The notes under the pieces: model-generated
Database searches by the model: none
What the model saw: only the letters and a program-made list of their open reading frames with translations
Told to the model about the DNA's origin: nothing
Made by a program: the position numbers and the translations under genes
Shown here: piece by piece, positions 11,772 through 44,558 of the stretch
Layout of the letters: each line of letters begins with the position of its first letter
Position numbering within the stretch: position 1 is the first letter of the stretch
Source: Flavobacterium sp. J27
GTDB lineage: Bacteria; Bacteroidota; Bacteroidia; Flavobacteriales; Flavobacteriaceae
NCBI RefSeq assembly: GCF_004303025.1
Contig: NZ_PJQW01000002.1
Coordinates: forward strand, 344,667-408,666
DNA length: 64,000 bases
Reading direction: 5' to 3'

Positions 11772-11841
11772 AATTCAGCTTATGAATAATTTCTAAACTA
11801 TATCTTTTTTTTAAAATTTAGAATTATTTTTGAGCTGAATT
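11772..11841. repeat. Long imperfect inverted repeat before the TPR-LuxR gene
   Basis: AATTCAGCT at 11772 and AGCTGAATT at 11833 are the outer arms. The complementarity continues inward (AATAATTTCTAAA against TTTAGAATTATT), giving arms of about 27 bp with few mismatches. The right arm ends 7 bp before the ATG at 11849, so besides ending the upstream cluster it could sequester the translation start. Confidence 0.5.
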
Positions 11842-11848
11842 TAAAAGA

Positions 11849-13486
11849 ATGACAACTAAAATCTATTTTATAATTACATTTTTTTGCCTTTTTGGGCAAA
11901 TGCAATTGTTTGGTATGGAAACAACTAAACAATGTGATTCTATTATTAAAGAAGGTGTGCAATTAATGTTTAGAAAAGATCATGTTGCTTCTTTAGAATT
12001 GCTTTCCGAAGCGAAAGAAATGGCACAAAAGAACCAATGGTACAAACAGCTTTTTCTGGCACAAAACAACATTGCTAATAATTATTATATGCTTCTAGAT
12101 TATGGAGAAGCTTTAAAACAACACCTCGAAAGTTATAAAATTGCCAGTAAATATTTAGACGATACCCAACTCATGATTGTTCTAAATAACATTGCCATTT
12201 TGTACAGTAAAGAAAAAAAGTATGCAAAAGCGAATGCTTATTTCAACAAAGCTTTTATTCTAGCTGAAAAATATAAAGATTCTTTAAAAATGGGTATGTA
12301 TGCCATGAATTTAGGACTCTTAGCAAATGAACAGAAGCAATTATCACAAGCCAGAAAACATTTAAATCAAGCGTTAGAATTTGCTACTATTCCAGAAGTA
12401 AAGATTCCTACTCTTGTAGGTCTATACCAAAATGATTTTTTACAAGGAAATAATCTACAATCGAGATCTGAAGCTGAAAAATTACTCACAAATTTAAATA
12501 ACGAACCTAATAACGATAACCGTATCGAACTATCTTTGCTTATTGCTAAATGCTATTTAAAAGAAAATAATTTAGCCAAAGCACTCCAATGGGCAAATCA
12601 TACTGTTGCTGAAAAACCAGATTTGGAAAAAAAAATAGAATTATACGATTTGTTTGCAACCATTTATTTCCAGCTTACATCTTACGGAATAGCTTTTCAA
12701 TATAAAGATTCTATCACACTTTCTACTTCAAAATTGAATACAATAAAAAATGGAAAATTATTTGAAAGTAGTGAGGTTAAATTTCAGATTCAAAATTATA
12801 AAGATAAGCTACAAGAAAAAGAAATTAGACTTAAAAGCGAAAGAAAACTCTTTTATACTATTCTTATTATCATTGTTTTTGCGCTCATTATTTTATTATT
12901 GATTTTTAGAAATTATTCGATAAAAACTAAACAAAAAGAACTTATTGCAAAGAGAGAACAACAAGTAACAGCTTTTAAATTGGAAAAAGAAATAGCTGAA
13001 AAATCATTATTAGTTGAAAAAGAAAAAACAGCGCTTTTAGAACAAGAAAGTTTGAAAAACGAAATTCAAATTAGAAACCAAAGAATCTTATCGAGAGCTC
13101 TTTACATTTCTGGAAGAAACCAATTGTTACAAGATATTATAAAATCATTTACTTCATTACCTAATATAAATGAAAACGAAACGATTATCAAGAATATAAA
13201 AGCTTTGGAAGAGCATTTAAAAACAGATGACGATTGGGACAATTATGTTCGCCACTTTGATGAAGTTAATCAAGGTTTTATTCAACGATTAACCCAAAAG
13301 CACCACGATTTAACGGCTACAGATATTCGTTATTTATCATATGTGTATATGAATTTGGACACCAAAGAAATAGCCAATATGCTAAATATTACACCCGTGG
13401 CTTGCAGAAAAAGAAAAGAAAGAATTGAAAAAAGATTAGCATTACCCGACACCATTTCTTTGAATGTATATCTCTTAAGTATTTAA
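11849..13486 (+). CDS. TPR-transmembrane-LuxR-type HTH regulator
   Basis: 545 residues. It has a signal peptide-like N-terminus and about five TPR-type helical repeats between residues 35 and 290, with a periplasmic location implied. A single membrane segment (LFYTILIIIVFALIILLLIF) lies near residue 333-352, followed by a charged coiled coil and a C-terminal LuxR-like helix-turn-helix (LTATDIRYLSYVYMNLDTKE onward). This layout is a known Bacteroidota one-component membrane regulator type. The T9SS cargo gene directly downstream has a repeat-bearing promoter and is a candidate target. Confidence 0.8.
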   Translation: MTTKIYFIITFFCLFGQMQLFGMETTKQCDSIIKEGVQLMFRKDHVASLELLSEAKEMAQKNQWYKQLFLAQNNIANNYYMLLDYGEALKQHLESYKIASKYLDDTQLMIVLNNIAILYSKEKKYAKANAYFNKAFILAEKYKDSLKMGMYAMNLGLLANEQKQLSQARKHLNQALEFATIPEVKIPTLVGLYQNDFLQGNNLQSRSEAEKLLTNLNNEPNNDNRIELSLLIAKCYLKENNLAKALQWANHTVAEKPDLEKKIELYDLFATIYFQLTSYGIAFQYKDSITLSTSKLNTIKNGKLFESSEVKFQIQNYKDKLQEKEIRLKSERKLFYTILIIIVFALIILLLIFRNYSIKTKQKELIAKREQQVTAFKLEKEIAEKSLLVEKEKTALLEQESLKNEIQIRNQRILSRALYISGRNQLLQDIIKSFTSLPNINENETIIKNIKALEEHLKTDDDWDNYVRHFDEVNQGFIQRLTQKHHDLTATDIRYLSYVYMNLDTKEIANMLNITPVACRKRKERIEKRLALPDTISLNVYLLSI

Positions 13487-13520: not shown

Positions 13521-13557
13521 AATGTCACAATTTGTTTACAACAATGTCACAATTTGT
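13521..13557. promoter_or_regulatory. 22-bp-period direct repeats upstream of T9SS cargo gene
   Basis: AATGTCACAATTTGT occurs perfectly twice, at 13521 and 13543 (period 22 bp, two helical turns). The second copy ends 37 bp before the -7 box at 13594, just upstream of where a -33 element would sit. A similar pair occurs before the other T9SS gene (42734), suggesting activator binding. Confidence 0.6.
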
Positions 13558-13593
13558 CACGCTTTACAAAACCCTTGCTATGCTTAGCCTTGT

Positions 13594-13601
13594 TACATTT
13601 G
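13594..13601 (+). promoter_or_regulatory. Bacteroidota -7 box TACATTTG
   Basis: TACATTTG fits TAnnTTTG exactly and lies 24 bp before the ATG at 13626. Confidence 0.65.
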
Positions 13602-13625: not shown

Positions 13626-14501
13626 ATGAAAAAAAATGTACTACTATTCTTTTTGAGTTGCACTTATGCGTTAGTTGCTCAAAATCCACAAATTCAAGGA
13701 GACGTAATGCTTTGTCCATGGACTAATGGAACGGCTTCTGTAACCAATCAAACTTACGATACCTATCAATGGTATTTTAAATATTGGTTTACTTCAGACC
13801 CTTATACTGCTATTGCTGGAGCTACTTCTGAATCTTTCACCTATGATTGGTACACCTATGATCAAGCCCTTTTAAAAGTAGTGGTTACCTCAGGAGGAAA
13901 TACATATGAATCAAATGAAATTCAAATTGATAGCTATGCTTGGACTAGTTTGGTAATTTATAATGAAATGAATTCAACGGTATCTGTCGATGGAAATAAC
14001 GGTAATTTTCTATTGTGCCAAGGTGGTAGCTTCAACAACACGATTAATAGTCCTTATGATACCAATATTCAGTGGTATAAAGATGATGTTGCTATTCCAG
14101 GAGCAAATGATATTTCCTATGTAATTACAGAACCAGGAAGTTATTATGTTGTGGCAGCACCAGAATTTTGCCCAAATAGTAGCAGTAGTAATCAAGGGTT
14201 ACCCATGATTGTGGAATGGGATACTAATTGTAGTTTGAGCATTGAAAACCCTACTTTTTCTAATTTAGTAACTCTTTATCCTAATCCAGTAAAAGAAACA
14301 CTTTTTATATCTGTTTCCGATAATAGTGTTATTCATGACTACACTATTGTAGATAATTTAGGTAAAATTTTAATTCAAAAAACAATTGGAATCTCAAATA
14401 ATACACTTTCTGTTAATACAAATAAATTAGCCGTAGGTTTTTACACACTTATTTTAAATGGAGATTCTGGAAAAGCTATCAAAAAATTTATTAAAGAGTA
14501 A
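13626..14501 (+). CDS. Secreted protein with T9SS type A sorting domain
   Basis: 291 residues. The signal peptide is MKKNVLLFFLSCTYALVAQN. The middle holds two Ig-like/PKD-like modules rich in aromatic residues (TYDTYQWYFKYWF, then NIQWYKDDVAIPGANDISY). The last about 75 residues are a T9SS type A C-terminal domain: LVTLYPNPVKETLFIS, then DNLGKILIQK and LAVGFYTLILNGDSGKAIKKF. It should be exported by the type IX system to the surface or medium. No catalytic motif is visible. It is followed by a strong terminator. Confidence 0.85.
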   Translation: MKKNVLLFFLSCTYALVAQNPQIQGDVMLCPWTNGTASVTNQTYDTYQWYFKYWFTSDPYTAIAGATSESFTYDWYTYDQALLKVVVTSGGNTYESNEIQIDSYAWTSLVIYNEMNSTVSVDGNNGNFLLCQGGSFNNTINSPYDTNIQWYKDDVAIPGANDISYVITEPGSYYVVAAPEFCPNSSSSNQGLPMIVEWDTNCSLSIENPTFSNLVTLYPNPVKETLFISVSDNSVIHDYTIVDNLGKILIQKTIGISNNTLSVNTNKLAVGFYTLILNGDSGKAIKKFIKE

Positions 14502-32328: not shown

Positions 32329-35300
32329 ATGAGAGATATAGAAAGAGCATACGAAGCGCTTCTAAAGAAAACGAAAGAACAAGAAGAAGAAATTAAAAGA
32401 CTTCATGCAGCCCAAAAGAGCAACATAAATTCGGAGGCAGAAAACGAAGATACTTACAAGAATATCTACCATGCGTTATTAGATAACAACGATAGTATTG
32501 TTATTCTAATGGACGAAAATTTAAATACATTATACAGAAGTAAATCTACTGCCTTAATTACAGGTTGGACCGATGAGTCGCACATAGATGCACCACTACT
32601 AAGCTATATTCATCCTGATTATCTCGATTATGTAGATAACATGATTCAGCTATCCATAGATCAACCTAAAACAGCTATTAATGTTACCCTACAAGTAAAA
32701 CATGAAAATGGAAATTATATTTGGCTAGAAGGTATTATTAACAATCGTATTGATGATAGTAATATTAATGGCATTATCGTAATCCTAAGAGATATTACCG
32801 AACGGAAAAAAATCTTCGAAATTATTACAGAAGAAAAAGAAAAGTTTGATAAGATTGCAGCAACTTCTCCTGGATTAATTTATTCCATGCGACAAAATAA
32901 AGACGGTTCATTAACTTATCCTTATGCTAGTGAAGCTGTGGGAGAAATATATGGTTTTGCTCATGAAGATATTAAAGACAATCCAAACAAGATTTTTGCT
33001 TTAATTCATCCCGATGATTTACAATATGTAATAGATAGTGTTACCGAAACAAAAACAAAATTAGTTCCTCTAAATTGTACGTATCGTTACTTTCACCCTA
33101 AAAAAGGATTAGTATGGCATGAAGTTAATTCGTTACCTGTTGTGGAAGCGGAAGGAACGGTAATTTGTCATGGTATTGCAACCGACATCACAGAGCGAAT
33201 TTTAGCCAAACAAAAAATAGTAAAAGCCAATCGTTTATATCATTTCATTAGTCAAATGAATCAAATGATTGTGCGTGCTACAGATGAAGATACCTTATTT
33301 AAAGAGGCTTGTGCTATAGCTGTAAATATTGGTAAATTTAAAATGGTATGGATTGGCATGAAAGATGAAAGTTCAGATAAAATTGAACCTAAAGTAATTG
33401 CGGGTGAAGACAATGGATATGTAAAAGCCATGCAAACCATTCTTTTAGAAAATAACCAAAATGTAATTGCATCTCGTTGTGAAGCGCTAAAAAGAGAAAA
33501 ATATGTCGTAATCAACAATGTAGCTGATGACTCGATTATGCAACCTTGGAGAGAAGAAGCCTTAGTAAGAGATTTTCAATCGTTAATGATTTTACCAATT
33601 AGAAAATTTGAAGAAACCGTAGGTATTTTCTGTTTTTATTCCAGTGAGGTCAATTATTTCGATGAAGAAGAAATTGCGTTAGTAGAAGAAGCCACTTCAG
33701 ATGTTTCATTTGCTCTAGAAGTTTTTGAAAACGAAAGAATTAAGAAGAATGCTTTAAAAGAAATGATTGAAAGTGAAAACAGATATCATATCTTAACCGA
33801 AATTTCACCTGTAGGTATTTTCCGAACTGACGCGGCTGGTTTTACCACTTATGTTAATCCTAGGTGGTCAGAAATAACAGGAATGCCTTACGAAAAAGCA
33901 TTAGGTAATGGATGGTTAGATGCAGTACATGAAGAAGACAGACTATCGTTACAAAAAGGATGGGAAACCGCGACTGAACATAAGGATTTATCACTCTCAG
34001 AATATCGCTTTATAAAACCCGACGGTACTATCGTTTGGGTTATGGGACATGCTATTCCAGAAAAAAATGCAAATAATGAAGTTGTAGGTTATGTAGGTAC
34101 AACCACAAATATTACAGAACGTAAAAGAGTGGAAGAAGAGTTTAAAAAATCCTATGAAAAACTAGAAGCTATTATAGATGCTATTCCCGATTTATTAATA
34201 GAAATTGATGCAGAAGGACGCATTTTTAATTACCACGCGCACAGAGAAAACTTATTATCGCATTCTACTACTGCTATTATCGGAAAACTATTGGCAGAAG
34301 TATTACCAAAAGCTGCTGGTAAATGTTTTACTGAAGCAATGGAAGACGTAATCAACAAAGGATTTTCAACTGGTAAACAGTATGAATTGCATTTACCTAG
34401 TGGCAAGCACTGGTTTGAATTGTCTATTGCACCTATGGAAGAAAGTAATGCTAATGAAAATCATTTTATTTGTCTTTCCCGAGATATTACTATTGCCAAA
34501 CAATCTGAAATTGAGCTACAAAAAAGTAAAGAACGCTATCAAGAAATTTTAAACAATCTAGATGCTGGAATTATTGTCCAAGGTATCAATGGTTCTATTT
34601 TATTGAACAATGTAAAAGCTGCTGAATTATTAAATATTAAACCATTTGATAAATTGGTTTCTAATTGGATATTTTTAAATGAAGACGGCAGTTTAATGGA
34701 TAAAAATAAGTATCCTATACATCAATTATTAGAAGGTGGAAATCCTATTAAAAATTTAATCCTTGGTGTAGCTAAATCAAAAAAGACGACATGGCTATTA
34801 TTTAATGCTTTCGCTGTAAAAAATGTAAAAGGTCAGATTACAGAAATTGTTTCTAGTTTTATAGATATTACAGAACGAAAGTTAATGGAAATTGAAATTT
34901 TAAAAGGAAAAGATCAAGCAGAAGCAGCCAACAAGGCAAAAACTGATTTCTTGGCCAATATGAGTCACGAAATTAGAACACCTCTAAATGGAATTATTGG
35001 TTTTAGTCATTTATTAATGGAATCTAATTTAGAGAAAACCCATTATCAATATATGTCTACAATTAACGAATCGGCTTCTTCCCTATTAAAAATTGTAAAT
35101 GACATTCTTGATTTTTCAAAAATTGAATCGGGTAAATTTGAATTAAATATTGAGGAAGTAGATTTGTATGAATTGACACAACAAGTAGTCGATTTATTTC
35201 AATACCAAGCGCATCAAAAGAAATTAAATTTGGTACTCAACCGACATAAAGAAGTACCACAATTTATACTGGCCGATTTGGTCCGCCTGAAACAAATTTT

Positions 35301-36072
35301 AATGAACTTATTAAGTAATGCTTTAAAGTTTACTGAATTTGGTGAAATTCAATTAAATATTACTCCAATCAAAGTTTCAAATGATACTGCCGTTTTACAT
35401 TTTTCGGTAAATGATACAGGTATTGGTATTAAAATTGACAATAATGAAAAAATCTTCGATTCCTTTGTTCAAGAAGATACTTCTACCAGTAGAAAATTTG
35501 GAGGAACTGGTTTAGGTTTAGCTATTTCAAATCAATTATTAGCTTTAATGGGTAGTAAGTTAGAACTGGAGAGTAAATATGGAGAAGGAAGTAAATTTTT
35601 CTTTACTATAAAAGTGACTAAAATTCCTAAAAACGACCTCCATTCTAATGCGCTAAAAAAGAATTTAAATCATAATACTAATTCAGATACAGAAGTTCTA
35701 AAACGTTTTAAAGTGTTAGTAGTTGAAGACAATAAAGTAAATATGCTATTGGCGAAAACATTATTACAAAAAATAAATCCGAATATATACATTTTAGAAG
35801 CTTTTGATGGTGTTGAAGCTGTCTCTCTATTTCAAAATGAAGTTATCGATTTAATATTAATGGATGTCCAAATGCCTAATAAAAATGGTTATGATGCAAC
35901 CAAAGAAATCAGACAATTAGTACAAGGTAAAAAAACACCTATTATTGCCATTACTGCAGGTATTTTAGCTCATGAAAGAGAACGTTGTTTTGAAGCGGGT
36001 ATGAATGATTATTTGTCAAAACCTATCATCAAAACAGATTTAGAAGCTATACTTAATAAATGGTTAGTATAA
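32329..36072 (+). CDS. Soluble PAS/GAF hybrid histidine kinase
   Basis: 1247 residues with no membrane segment. A short coiled coil is followed by PAS domains ending in DITERK-type motifs (at about residues 160, 285, 605, 725 and 865), with a GAF domain near 300-460 ([16 protein letters not shown]). The HisKA box is [16 protein letters not shown] with His near 880; the HATPase has [21 protein letters not shown] and [12 protein letters not shown]-terminal receiver has [15 protein letters not shown] (Asp near 1179). It senses cytoplasmic signals through several PAS/GAF sites; no output domain or cognate regulator is adjacent. Confidence 0.9.
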
Positions 36073-42733: not shown

Positions 42734-42773
42734 AATAATTTACAAATTGTTATGGAATAATTTACAAATTGTT
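42734..42773. promoter_or_regulatory. 22-bp-period direct repeats upstream of T9SS beta-helix gene
   Basis: AATAATTTACAAATTGTT occurs perfectly at 42734 and 42756 (period 22 bp). The second copy ends 35 bp before the -7 box at 42808. The core ACAAATTGT is the reverse complement of the ACAATTTGT core in the 13521 repeats. The remaining part of the 42481-42941 gap is A/T-rich with no gene. Confidence 0.6.
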
Positions 42774-42807: not shown

Positions 42808-42815
42808 TACTTTTG
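42808..42815 (+). promoter_or_regulatory. Bacteroidota -7 box TACTTTTG
   Basis: TACTTTTG fits TAnnTTTG and lies about 127 bp before the ATG at 42942, leaving a long leader. Confidence 0.5.
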
Positions 42816-42941: not shown

Positions 42942-44558
42942 ATGAAAAAACAATTAACTTCTTTTTTATTTTTATTATTGATATCAAAAACAATCTTTGC
43001 TACAAACTATTACATTGATCCCGTTAATGGAAATAATTCATATAATGGTCTAACGGAAGTTACTGCAAAACAAACCTTAACATGGTTTTCTTATAATACC
43101 ACTTTTTTGCAACCCGGAGATACAGTTTTTTTAATGAATGGAACATATACCGCTTCTGGCTTTGCAATATTAGCCTTGCGAGCATCGGGTACAACTACTA
43201 ACCCAATCACTTTTAAAAACTATCCAGGTCATACTCCTATTTTACAAATGAATGATTTCCAGTGGCATGCAATTCATTTAGGAGAAGGAATTCATGATAT
43301 TATCATAGATGGCTTGCGAATAAGAGGAAATGCAGCAACAATAGATTTAACTGATGCATTGAATCAACCTGCTAGTTGCGGAAACCCTTCAGGTTCACCA
43401 GATCCTAAATTTAATGGGAATGGAATCACCATAGATGGCAGAACGAATGATGCTTTAGTACATCATATTATAGTTCGTAATTGTGAGATATATGAATGTT
43501 GTGGTGGTGGTATTGCTGCACTTCAAGCAGATTATCTAACTTACGAAAACAATCATATCTATGATAATTCTTGGTATACAATATATGGTGCTAGTGGCAT
43601 TTCAAATCTTAATTCGGTAAACTATGATAATCATACAGAACAAAATTATTCTATGATTATAAGAAATAATGTTCTTCATGGAAACGAGTTATATATACCA
43701 TGGATTGGACCATGCGTTATTTATGATGGAAATGGAATTATAATTGACTCAGAAAATAATGCTACTATTAGTAAACCTGCTTACTCTGGAAAAACTCTAA
43801 TTGAAAATAATGTTGTACATCATAATGGTGGAAGAGGTATTCATGCCTACCATAGTAATGGTATAGATATTATCAACAACACTTGTTATATGAATGGAAG
43901 GTCTCCTGTTATTTCCGATGGAGAAATTACAGTACAAGGCGCAACAAATGTTAAGGTGTACAACAATATAATGTATGCTCGTGAAACAGAACGTGCCAAT
44001 TTCTTAGATGCCGCATCTACTGGTTTTTCTTTTGGAAACAATTTAATTTTCAATGCTATAAATAATCAAATAAGTTACACTAATAGTACAGATAAAGTAG
44101 GACTTGATCCTCTTTTTATTAATCCTAATTTATATAATGGTAATTTTAAAGTAGAAACTACAAGTCCTGCTATTAATGGAGGGAATAATTTAATTTTTGC
44201 CACAACAGATTATGATGGAATATCTCGCCCACAAGGTTCTTCATCTGATATTGGGGCTTTTGAAGCGGCTTCTGCATTAAGTAATTCAACATTTGAAGAA
44301 AGCTTAAATACTGTAATTATTTACCCTAATCCAACTACAGATTTAGTAACTGTTCATTATACTTTAATTCAAAATTCAAATGTAACTATTAATTTATATG
44401 ATTATTTAGGTAAAGAAGTGATTTCAATATACAATGAAAAACAAAATAAAGGAAAGCAAGAGATAGAAATTAAAACAAATTACTTACAAAAAGGGATTTA
44501 TTTATTAAAAATAAATAATGGATTGCAAACCTTAGTAAAGAAAATAATCGTTAATTAG
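42942..44558 (+). CDS. Secreted right-handed beta-helix protein with T9SS sorting domain
   Basis: 538 residues from ATG 42942, chosen because it begins with a signal peptide (MKKQLTSFLFLLLISKTIFA); an upstream in-frame extension from 42687 is A/T-rich leader. The mature start YYIDPVNGNNSYNGL is the DUF1565/polysaccharide-lyase-like beta-helix opening. Parallel beta-helix repeats follow (NGITIDG, HHIIVRNCEIYEC, IIRNNVLHGNE, IENNVVHHNGGRG). The end VIIYPNPTTDLVTVHYTL with GIYLLKINNGLQTLVKKI is a T9SS type A domain. Likely a surface polysaccharide-binding or -degrading protein; catalysis not assigned. Confidence 0.85.
   Translation: MKKQLTSFLFLLLISKTIFATNYYIDPVNGNNSYNGLTEVTAKQTLTWFSYNTTFLQPGDTVFLMNGTYTASGFAILALRASGTTTNPITFKNYPGHTPILQMNDFQWHAIHLGEGIHDIIIDGLRIRGNAATIDLTDALNQPASCGNPSGSPDPKFNGNGITIDGRTNDALVHHIIVRNCEIYECCGGGIAALQADYLTYENNHIYDNSWYTIYGASGISNLNSVNYDNHTEQNYSMIIRNNVLHGNELYIPWIGPCVIYDGNGIIIDSENNATISKPAYSGKTLIENNVVHHNGGRGIHAYHSNGIDIINNTCYMNGRSPVISDGEITVQGATNVKVYNNIMYARETERANFLDAASTGFSFGNNLIFNAINNQISYTNSTDKVGLDPLFINPNLYNGNFKVETTSPAINGGNNLIFATTDYDGISRPQGSSSDIGAFEAASALSNSTFEESLNTVIIYPNPTTDLVTVHYTLIQNSNVTINLYDYLGKEVISIYNEKQNKGKQEIEIKTNYLQKGIYLLKINNGLQTLVKKIIVN

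Follow-up and report, generated by a model that had tools for sequence, protein, structure and literature searches.

The direct repeats that begin at position 13521 of the window, by which we mean the whole 64,000-nucleotide stretch of Flavobacterium sp. J27 DNA analysed here, are likely to be the dedicated operator of a three-part cassette, in which a TPR-transmembrane-LuxR-like regulator gene is followed by a tandem TGTCAC operator and then by a gene encoding a T9SS cargo protein. The array, its spacing, its offset from the promoter and its linkage to the regulator and to T9SS cargo are conserved. Because the array was found at 26 of 27 loci ascertained through the regulator protein and a T9SS cargo gene at all 27, the TPR-membrane-LuxR protein is the likely binder of the array. 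The elements of the cassette in the window are as follows.

11849-13486, + strand: P0001, a TPR, transmembrane, long-helix and LuxR/NarL-like HTH regulator of 545 aa (Pfam and AlphaFold2)
13522-13536, + strand: operator unit 1, ATGTCACAATTTGTT, with half-sites GTCAC at 13524-13528 and a degenerate GTTTA at 13534-13538 (by comparison with the family consensus)
13544-13558, + strand: operator unit 2, ATGTCACAATTTGTC, with half-sites GTCAC at 13546-13550 and GTCAC at 13556-13560
13594-13601, + strand: TAnnTTTG (−7) promoter box, TACATTTG; the first GTCAC of operator unit 2 starts 48 bp before it
13626-14501, + strand: P0002, a predicted T9SS type A cargo protein of 291 aa (Por_Secre_tail / TIGR04183)

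An earlier note on this DNA had described repeats with a period of 22 upstream of two genes for T9SS cargo proteins, those at 13626 and 42942, and both sets are present. The sequence AATGTCACAATTTGT occupies 13521-13535 and 13543-13557 (15 of 15 positions identical), and AATAATTTACAAATTGTT occupies 42734-42751 and 42756-42773 (18 of 18 identical). No other exact direct repeat with a length of 15 bp or more and a spacing of 8-40 exists in the 64 kb window, and none arose in any of 30 Markov-1 resamplings. A TAnnTTTG box lies beyond each pair, TACATTTG at 13594 and TACTTTTG at 42808, 36 and 34 bases past the repeat ends, where the note had put the distance at 35-37. The two sites also share the motif ACAAWTTGT, which had been proposed as a common core in opposite orientation; the shared motif holds up, but ACAAWTTGT is almost palindromic, which means that the opposite orientation is not forced, and when the sites are read in the same orientation their registers agree, with box-to-promoter offsets of 48 and 47. 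Across the whole genome (4,334,998 bases), the pattern ACAAWTTGT-N11-15-ACAAWTTGT was found at these two sites only, and a reversed-pattern control gave no match. The single 9-mer was not enriched in the window (70 occurrences with at most one mismatch against 60.1 expected, sd 7.1). The second set of features is listed below.

42734-42773, + strand: second repeat pair, with the same period and promoter offset and without GTC; its relation to the operator is putative
42808-42815, + strand: TAnnTTTG box, TACTTTTG, offset 47
42942-44558, + strand: P0003, a predicted T9SS type A cargo protein of 538 aa with beta-helix / choice-of-anchor Q features (profile matches)

Comparison with homologous promoters changed the identity of the core. 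The 9-mer ACAATTTGT that had been named as the core is rejected because the promoters of homologues retain GTCAC boxes instead, and the core reads GTCAC...GTC. From 26 homologous sites, the window's own included, the unit consensus is ATGTCACRNWWTGTC, present in two copies 21 or 22 bp apart, and in the second unit the GTC and the final C of GTCAC never vary. The full array takes the form GTCAC-N5-GTCAC-N7-GTCAC-N5-GTMRC, with boxes at 0, 10, 22 and 32; the copy in the window (GTCAC aattt GTTTA caacaat GTCAC aattt GTCAC, 13524-13560) matches it at 17 of the 20 box positions. Nothing else in the window had an array score above 13, save a 14 obtained on the minus-strand reading of that same 13524-13560 site. 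With an operator matrix, which was itself built with the 13524 site, 13524 led the window with 33.0 against 10.9 for the next position. Analysis of the stretch as a possible RNA element gave no structure signal (z −0.01).

Whether a single activator serves both cargo genes, as the earlier note had suggested, is a separate question. On that proposal 42734 would be a diverged, weaker site for the activator that binds at 13521. The impression of a common geometry was fair: both sites have the period of 22, the offsets of 48 and 47, an exact TAnnTTTG box and ACAAWTTGT in the same register, and they hold the only two ACAAWTTGT pairs in the genome. Against this, GTC, which all 26 sites have in box 2, is absent from all four half-sites at 42734, and under the operator matrix that site reached best scores of only −0.3 and −0.7, ranking 130 of 127,928 positions. 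Conservation likewise divides the two sites, because the 13521 operator is conserved in relatives and no relative with the 42734 repeats was found: P0003 had no match in five relatives (G346, G309, G220, G242 and G217), and the P0003 homologue in a further genome (G044, 45%) is not preceded by such repeats. Among 236 loci, the TTTACAA pair of 42734 was seen at its own site only. We therefore consider a shared activator doubtful. A scan of seven genes within 5 kb of 42942 detected no DNA-binding domain; a hybrid sensor kinase is encoded at 32329-36072.

The regulator itself provided a search in which loci were not chosen by motif or by cargo. When 397 genomes of the family were searched with the TPR-LuxR protein alone (E up to 1e-60), 27 loci were recovered from 21 genomes in 17 genera; at most three candidates were scored per genome, so that numbers of cassettes per genome are lower bounds. 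The GTCAC pair was scored from −25 to +85 around the regulator stop codon. Two GTCAC boxes at 21 or 22 bp, with no more than one mismatch in ten, followed the regulator stop at 26 of the 27 loci (15 with two exact boxes, 11 with one mismatch), and control windows from the same loci gave that quality in 4 of 7407 cases. The exception, L177, has a single box and three mismatches and is the sole locus of its genus, so that the pair is present in 16 of 17 genera. Setting aside the loci that had already been met through P0002 (the window's own, L188 and L189) or through the motif (L190), the count is 22 of 23. Counted instead as the TGTCAC hexamer with up to two mismatches, the pair is present at 24 of 27 loci (22 of 27 before the gene starts of two were corrected). 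The regulators of the family share 32-43% identity with P0001. Outside the family, the strict pair was present at one of three loci (G1125).

Among spacings of 12 to 34 at the 26 loci, 21 (14 loci) and 22 (11) predominate, followed by 32 (5) and 12 (3), both of which are distances between boxes inside one array, and every other spacing occurs at most once. The 21 bp period characterizes 12 of the 14 loci with a pair in the main clade of Sortilin/BNR regulators (among L171-L196), and the 22 bp period is seen at the P0002-type loci, at L171, L173 and L192, and at three of the five FG-GAP loci. A clade-linked array period might help paralogous regulators to distinguish their operators. Autoregulation through the array was rejected, since none of the 26 windows that precede the regulator start contains the pair at this stringency.

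At sigma-A promoters, activators are usually found directly before the −33 region. At 21 of the 26 family loci, a TAnnTTTG box with at most one mismatch lies 47 or 48 bp past the second GTCAC, and any other single offset averages 0.37. The array loci ascertained through P0002 show the box at 47 or 48, at the same stringency, in 17 of 27 cases and lack it there in 10. TAnnTTTG is given as the flavobacterial sigma-A box, at −12 to −5, in the accessible part of PMC9723704. The predicted promoter at 13594 (TACATTTG) carries this sigma-A −7 box, and if its TAnnTTTG starts at −12, the window's own array would cover roughly −84 to −46 and end shortly before the −33 region.

P0001 matches the Pfam family TPR_12 (E 5.7e-19), and its AlphaFold2 model (mean pLDDT 85) comprises a TPR solenoid at residues 26-275, a long helix at 279-435 and a C-terminal helical domain at 444-544. 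Judged by eye, the N-terminus is signal-like and a hydrophobic stretch at about 333-354 falls inside the long helix. Modelled alone (pLDDT 83), the C-terminal domain aligns with the DNA-binding domains of DosR (Z 8.6), RcsB (8.1), LiaR (8.1), VraR (8.0) and NarL (7.7), with an rmsd of about 2 over about 60 residues, although Z values below 8, or below 13 for helical models, may reflect a common arrangement. The best 50 structural alignments fall within model residues 45-116 and are LuxR/NarL-type by title, some of them to structures that we take to belong to that class of regulators. Foldseek returned no match to the C-terminal domain with an E value below 0.001. The model suggests a GerE-type HTH fold, to be read with the caution that such middling Z values call for.

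Profile searches were less specific about this end of the protein. The Pfam GerE/LuxR profile did not match P0001 at E values up to 0.1, a threshold at which only TPR families and Sigma70_r4_2 appeared; Sigma70_r4_2 reached 14.7 bits against a cut-off of 25.7, and no Pfam HTH profile exceeded its cut-off. Since the GerE match is absent, we term P0001 LuxR/NarL-like rather than a member of the LuxR/NarL group. No Pfam or NCBIfam model that names the whole TPR-membrane-LuxR-like protein scored above its cut-off. The TPR part resembles Rap, RapI and NprR, and LGN and kinesin light chain score equally well or better. Residues K521, R522, E524 and R525 (KRxER) are invariant in 42 members of the P0001 family, and as array-free paralogues carry them too, the KRxER signature alone does not predict an array. 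The three related TPR-LuxR proteins scored that lack KRxER (L159, L160 and L168) have no GTCAC pair behind the gene. Just before the regulator gene in the window, at 11772-11843, is an imperfect long inverted repeat, noted by eye, which is perhaps the terminator of the upstream genes.

P0002 scores 42.7 bits with Por_Secre_tail (PF18962; cut-off 27) and 39.5 bits with TIGR04183 (cut-off 23), and the C-terminal sorting domain of P0003 scores 57.1 and 46.9 bits with the same two models. At all 27 family loci, the next gene on the strand encodes a predicted T9SS type A cargo protein (Pfam and TIGR04183), of one of three passenger types: Sortilin/BNR (18), FG-GAP (5) or P0002-type (4). The protein at L220 had been taken by eye for a fourth type; it proved to be a 30% relative of P0002 and is one of the four P0002-type proteins. 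Elsewhere, at L164 with L226 (G024:C14), a one-mismatch array precedes the gene for a PKD protein with a CHU_C type IX (type B) sorting signal; the protein behind L161 (GEVED/fn3) had no sorting-domain match, and the sequences of those behind L162 and L163 are incomplete. On a tree of 51 regulators, seven cargo labels required eight changes and 200 of 200 shuffles required more, the tree being a quick one with a midpoint root, one long branch (L154) and some cargo labels assigned by eye. P0002-type cargo falls in two separate regulator lineages of that tree. Some genomes hold several cassettes, at least three in G455 and at least two each in G482, G681, G701 and G785. P0002-type cargo has in places grown by internal tandem duplication, up to 686 aa (L067), and L074 and L076 have a second P0002-type gene copy; these tandem-domain loci and related ones keep the array with no regulator nearby.

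Within Flavobacterium the association is looser. The nearest named relatives of P0002 are in Flavobacterium sp. 9AF (90%), F. profundi (84%) and F. jejuense (68%). At 27 of 31 named P0002-homologue loci, a GTCAC pair spaced 21 or 22 bp apart is present with no more than one mismatch; L078, L080, L082 and L086 lack it. The TPR-LuxR gene lies directly upstream on the same strand at 16 of the 31, with the array in between in all 16 and, in six of them, a single base between the regulator stop codon and the first GTCAC. F. profundi, F. jejuense and F. aquatile are among the species with this adjacent arrangement. A search with P0001 of the 21 Flavobacterium genomes chosen for P0002 yielded 28 loci (E up to 1e-60), of which 26 were examined, leaving out a broken copy (G217:C7) and G149:C1:333029. 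The broken copy, at G217:C7:89290-90847 (L167), is a TPR-LuxR gene interrupted by several stop codons. Fourteen of the 26 have the pair with at most one mismatch: at 11 it falls in the 110-base window and at L144 and L145 a little downstream of it, and L228 is the fourteenth. The 12 without it are L147-L153, L162, L163, L165, L166 and L225, among which L147-L153 are seven paralogues (44-48% identity) that mostly adjoin a PorP/SprF-like gene, and L165 and L166 have GTCGC twice at 22 bp; L230 has no pair. By eye, L147-L150, L152 and L153 adjoin a PorP/SprF-like T9SS membrane protein without a TGTCAC array. From the count of 14 in 26 we take it that the rule holds well across the family and is loosened in one group of Flavobacterium species, which have several paralogues.

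These genus data bear on the proposal that some other transcription factor, for example one of OmpR/PhoB type, binds the array, with the TPR-LuxR protein as a conserved neighbour that perhaps acts upstream. OmpR/PhoB-type boxes read TGTCA-like, and tandem direct repeats of GTCA type close to −35 are reminiscent of Pho boxes. Further points for such a factor are ten Flavobacterium P0002 loci at which the array is present with no regulator within the retrieved flanks, as in F. beibuense-type species, and the 12 of 26 regulator loci without a strict array. Pho-box and OmpR-PhoB operators are, however, direct repeats with an 11 bp period, and the distances between GTCAC boxes (at most one mismatch) are 6, 10, 12, 16, 17, 21, 22, 27 and 32, none of them 11. 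Array and regulator family also go together by genome: the array stands before at least one P0002 copy in 17 of the 21 genus genomes, and a P0001-family protein (E up to 1e-60) is encoded in every one of these; such a protein is missing from three of the four genomes without an array before P0002 (G034, which is 60% complete, G272 and G380) and present in the fourth, G326 (Fisher p 0.003). In G326 an exact pair lies behind the regulator and before a Sortilin/BNR cargo gene (Por_Secre_tail) and none before the P0002 homologue, so that, as judged from these sequences, a change of cargo leaves the array with the regulator. This makes another factor unlikely, and the TPR-LuxR protein at 11849, already put forward as a candidate in the earlier note, is the best predicted binder, given the protein-ascertained loci and the 17 array-bearing genus genomes.

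A few arrays stand apart from these patterns. At L072 the regulator is on the other strand, and in each of G416 and G392 an additional copy of P0002 lacks a strict pair. At L229 (G526:C6), a short contig without a regulator, a GTCAC array precedes another secreted-protein gene, with the regulator elsewhere in the genome and no TAnnTTTG at 47 or 48; this array is a possible target of the regulator in trans.

We favour a model in which the genes and sites are read in their order on the chromosome: regulator, tandem operator, sigma-A promoter at a fixed distance and one gene for a T9SS-exported protein. The regulator would be a membrane-spanning one-component protein, with a predicted periplasmic TPR sensor, one membrane helix and a cytoplasmic LuxR/NarL-like HTH. 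Its operator would be a pair of 15 bp units (ATGTCACRNWWTGTC) spaced by 21-22 bp, and each unit would hold two GTC(AC) half-sites at a distance of 10 bp. Upon a periplasmic signal, two HTH dimers may occupy the two units on one helix face, at about −84 to −46, and the bound dimers would then activate the promoter of the adjacent cargo gene. We infer activation rather than repression, and the HTH binding, the dimers, the membrane topology and the periplasmic sensing are likewise our reading of models, profiles and site geometry. A role of the array as a site for a repressor or for negative feedback is quite improbable, since the units stop short of the −33 region, at a constant 47 or 48 bp from the −7 box, where activators usually bind, and leave the core promoter free. 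A recent tandem duplication or mobile-element scar without function, which the exactness of the copies in the window might suggest, is refuted for 13521, because 16 of 17 genera, with regulators 32-43% identical to P0001, retain the pair at its spacing of 21 or 22 bp.

The proposed regulator of the cassette combines traits of several known systems. Like NarL, DosR, LiaR, RcsB and VraR, it would use a C-terminal HTH of the same fold on two units that lie on one face near −35; P0001 differs in having no receiver or autoinducer domain, with TPRs and a predicted membrane helix in their place. The half-sites of known NarL/LuxR-type regulators are in inverted order, whereas those described here are in direct order. 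CadC and ToxR are membrane-bound one-component activators, and they resemble the arrangement here in the periplasmic sensor (predicted for P0001), the single membrane helix, the cytoplasmic HTH and the position of the gene beside its target. The domain order here is the reverse of theirs, with the sensor N-terminal, the HTH is LuxR-like rather than a winged helix, and the sensor is made of TPRs.

The RRNPP/Rap peptide receptors have TPRs like those of P0001, but they are cytoplasmic, whereas the TPR part of P0001 is predicted to be periplasmic and is fused to a membrane helix and an HTH. TPR domains often bind peptides. In the accessible part of PMC7712824, the T9SS CTD protein PorA of Porphyromonas gingivalis is proposed as a signal relay to PorXY-SigP. 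Taken together, these points make sensing of the neighbouring cargo a bold but testable idea: in a private, secretion-coupled circuit, the periplasmic TPR part might read the neighbouring cargo, or its C-terminal domain, in transit. We regard this as a long shot. The PorXY-SigP system, as far as the accessible parts of PMC4800418 and PMC8265659 describe it, controls T9SS genes in P. gingivalis, and is thus another case of transcriptional control within the T9SS world; it differs in acting on genes for T9SS components through an ECF sigma factor, whereas the cassette involves single cargo genes, TAnnTTTG promoters and a neighbouring regulator.

A broad regulon was also sought by motif. The expectation of a genome-wide T9SS motif failed in the window's own genome, where the TGTCAC pair at 21 or 22 bp occurs once; a TGTCAC pair at 19 bp by another gene of that genome was dropped. 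Across the genus, the pattern GTCAC-N15-18-GTCAC-NN-TTTG matched in 9 of 199 genomes against 14 of 199 for the reversed control, and a broad T9SS regulon defined in this way was rejected; four of the nine matches stand before P0002-type genes (the window's own, L052, L059 and L060). A triple-box pattern matched in 13 of 397 family genomes, with 8 of 397 for its reversed control (190 times in G451 alone). Its 14 places comprise four before a secreted-protein gene in the right sense (L129, L134, L135 and L136), six inside or bordering an ORF, and four (L130, L138, L139 and L140) outside ORFs of at least 90 aa.

A one-component membrane regulator with a tandem operator is a known kind of system, and it is the combination and the link to T9SS that look new. 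In the accessible parts of the open-access literature, to which the search was confined (subscription papers and preprints being outside its scope), we found no description of this regulator type, its operator or their pairing.

As judged from the accessible parts of the papers cited above, PorXY-SigP acts on the secretion machinery, whereas the cassette concerns single cargo genes. Our analysis offers a candidate function for TPR-membrane-LuxR-like proteins and, for 16 genera of one family sample, a practical handle: an operator unit of 15 bp at a set distance from the promoter, together with a defined HTH and identified cargo genes. We are aware of little that explains how individual T9SS cargo genes are turned on. 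Were the secretion-coupled circuit to prove true, the cell would tune the transcription of one exported protein to its own export state, and three or more such private circuits could coexist in one genome. Irrespective of what is sensed, the switch is probably the sign of a widespread mechanism, not described before, by which individual exported proteins are turned on.
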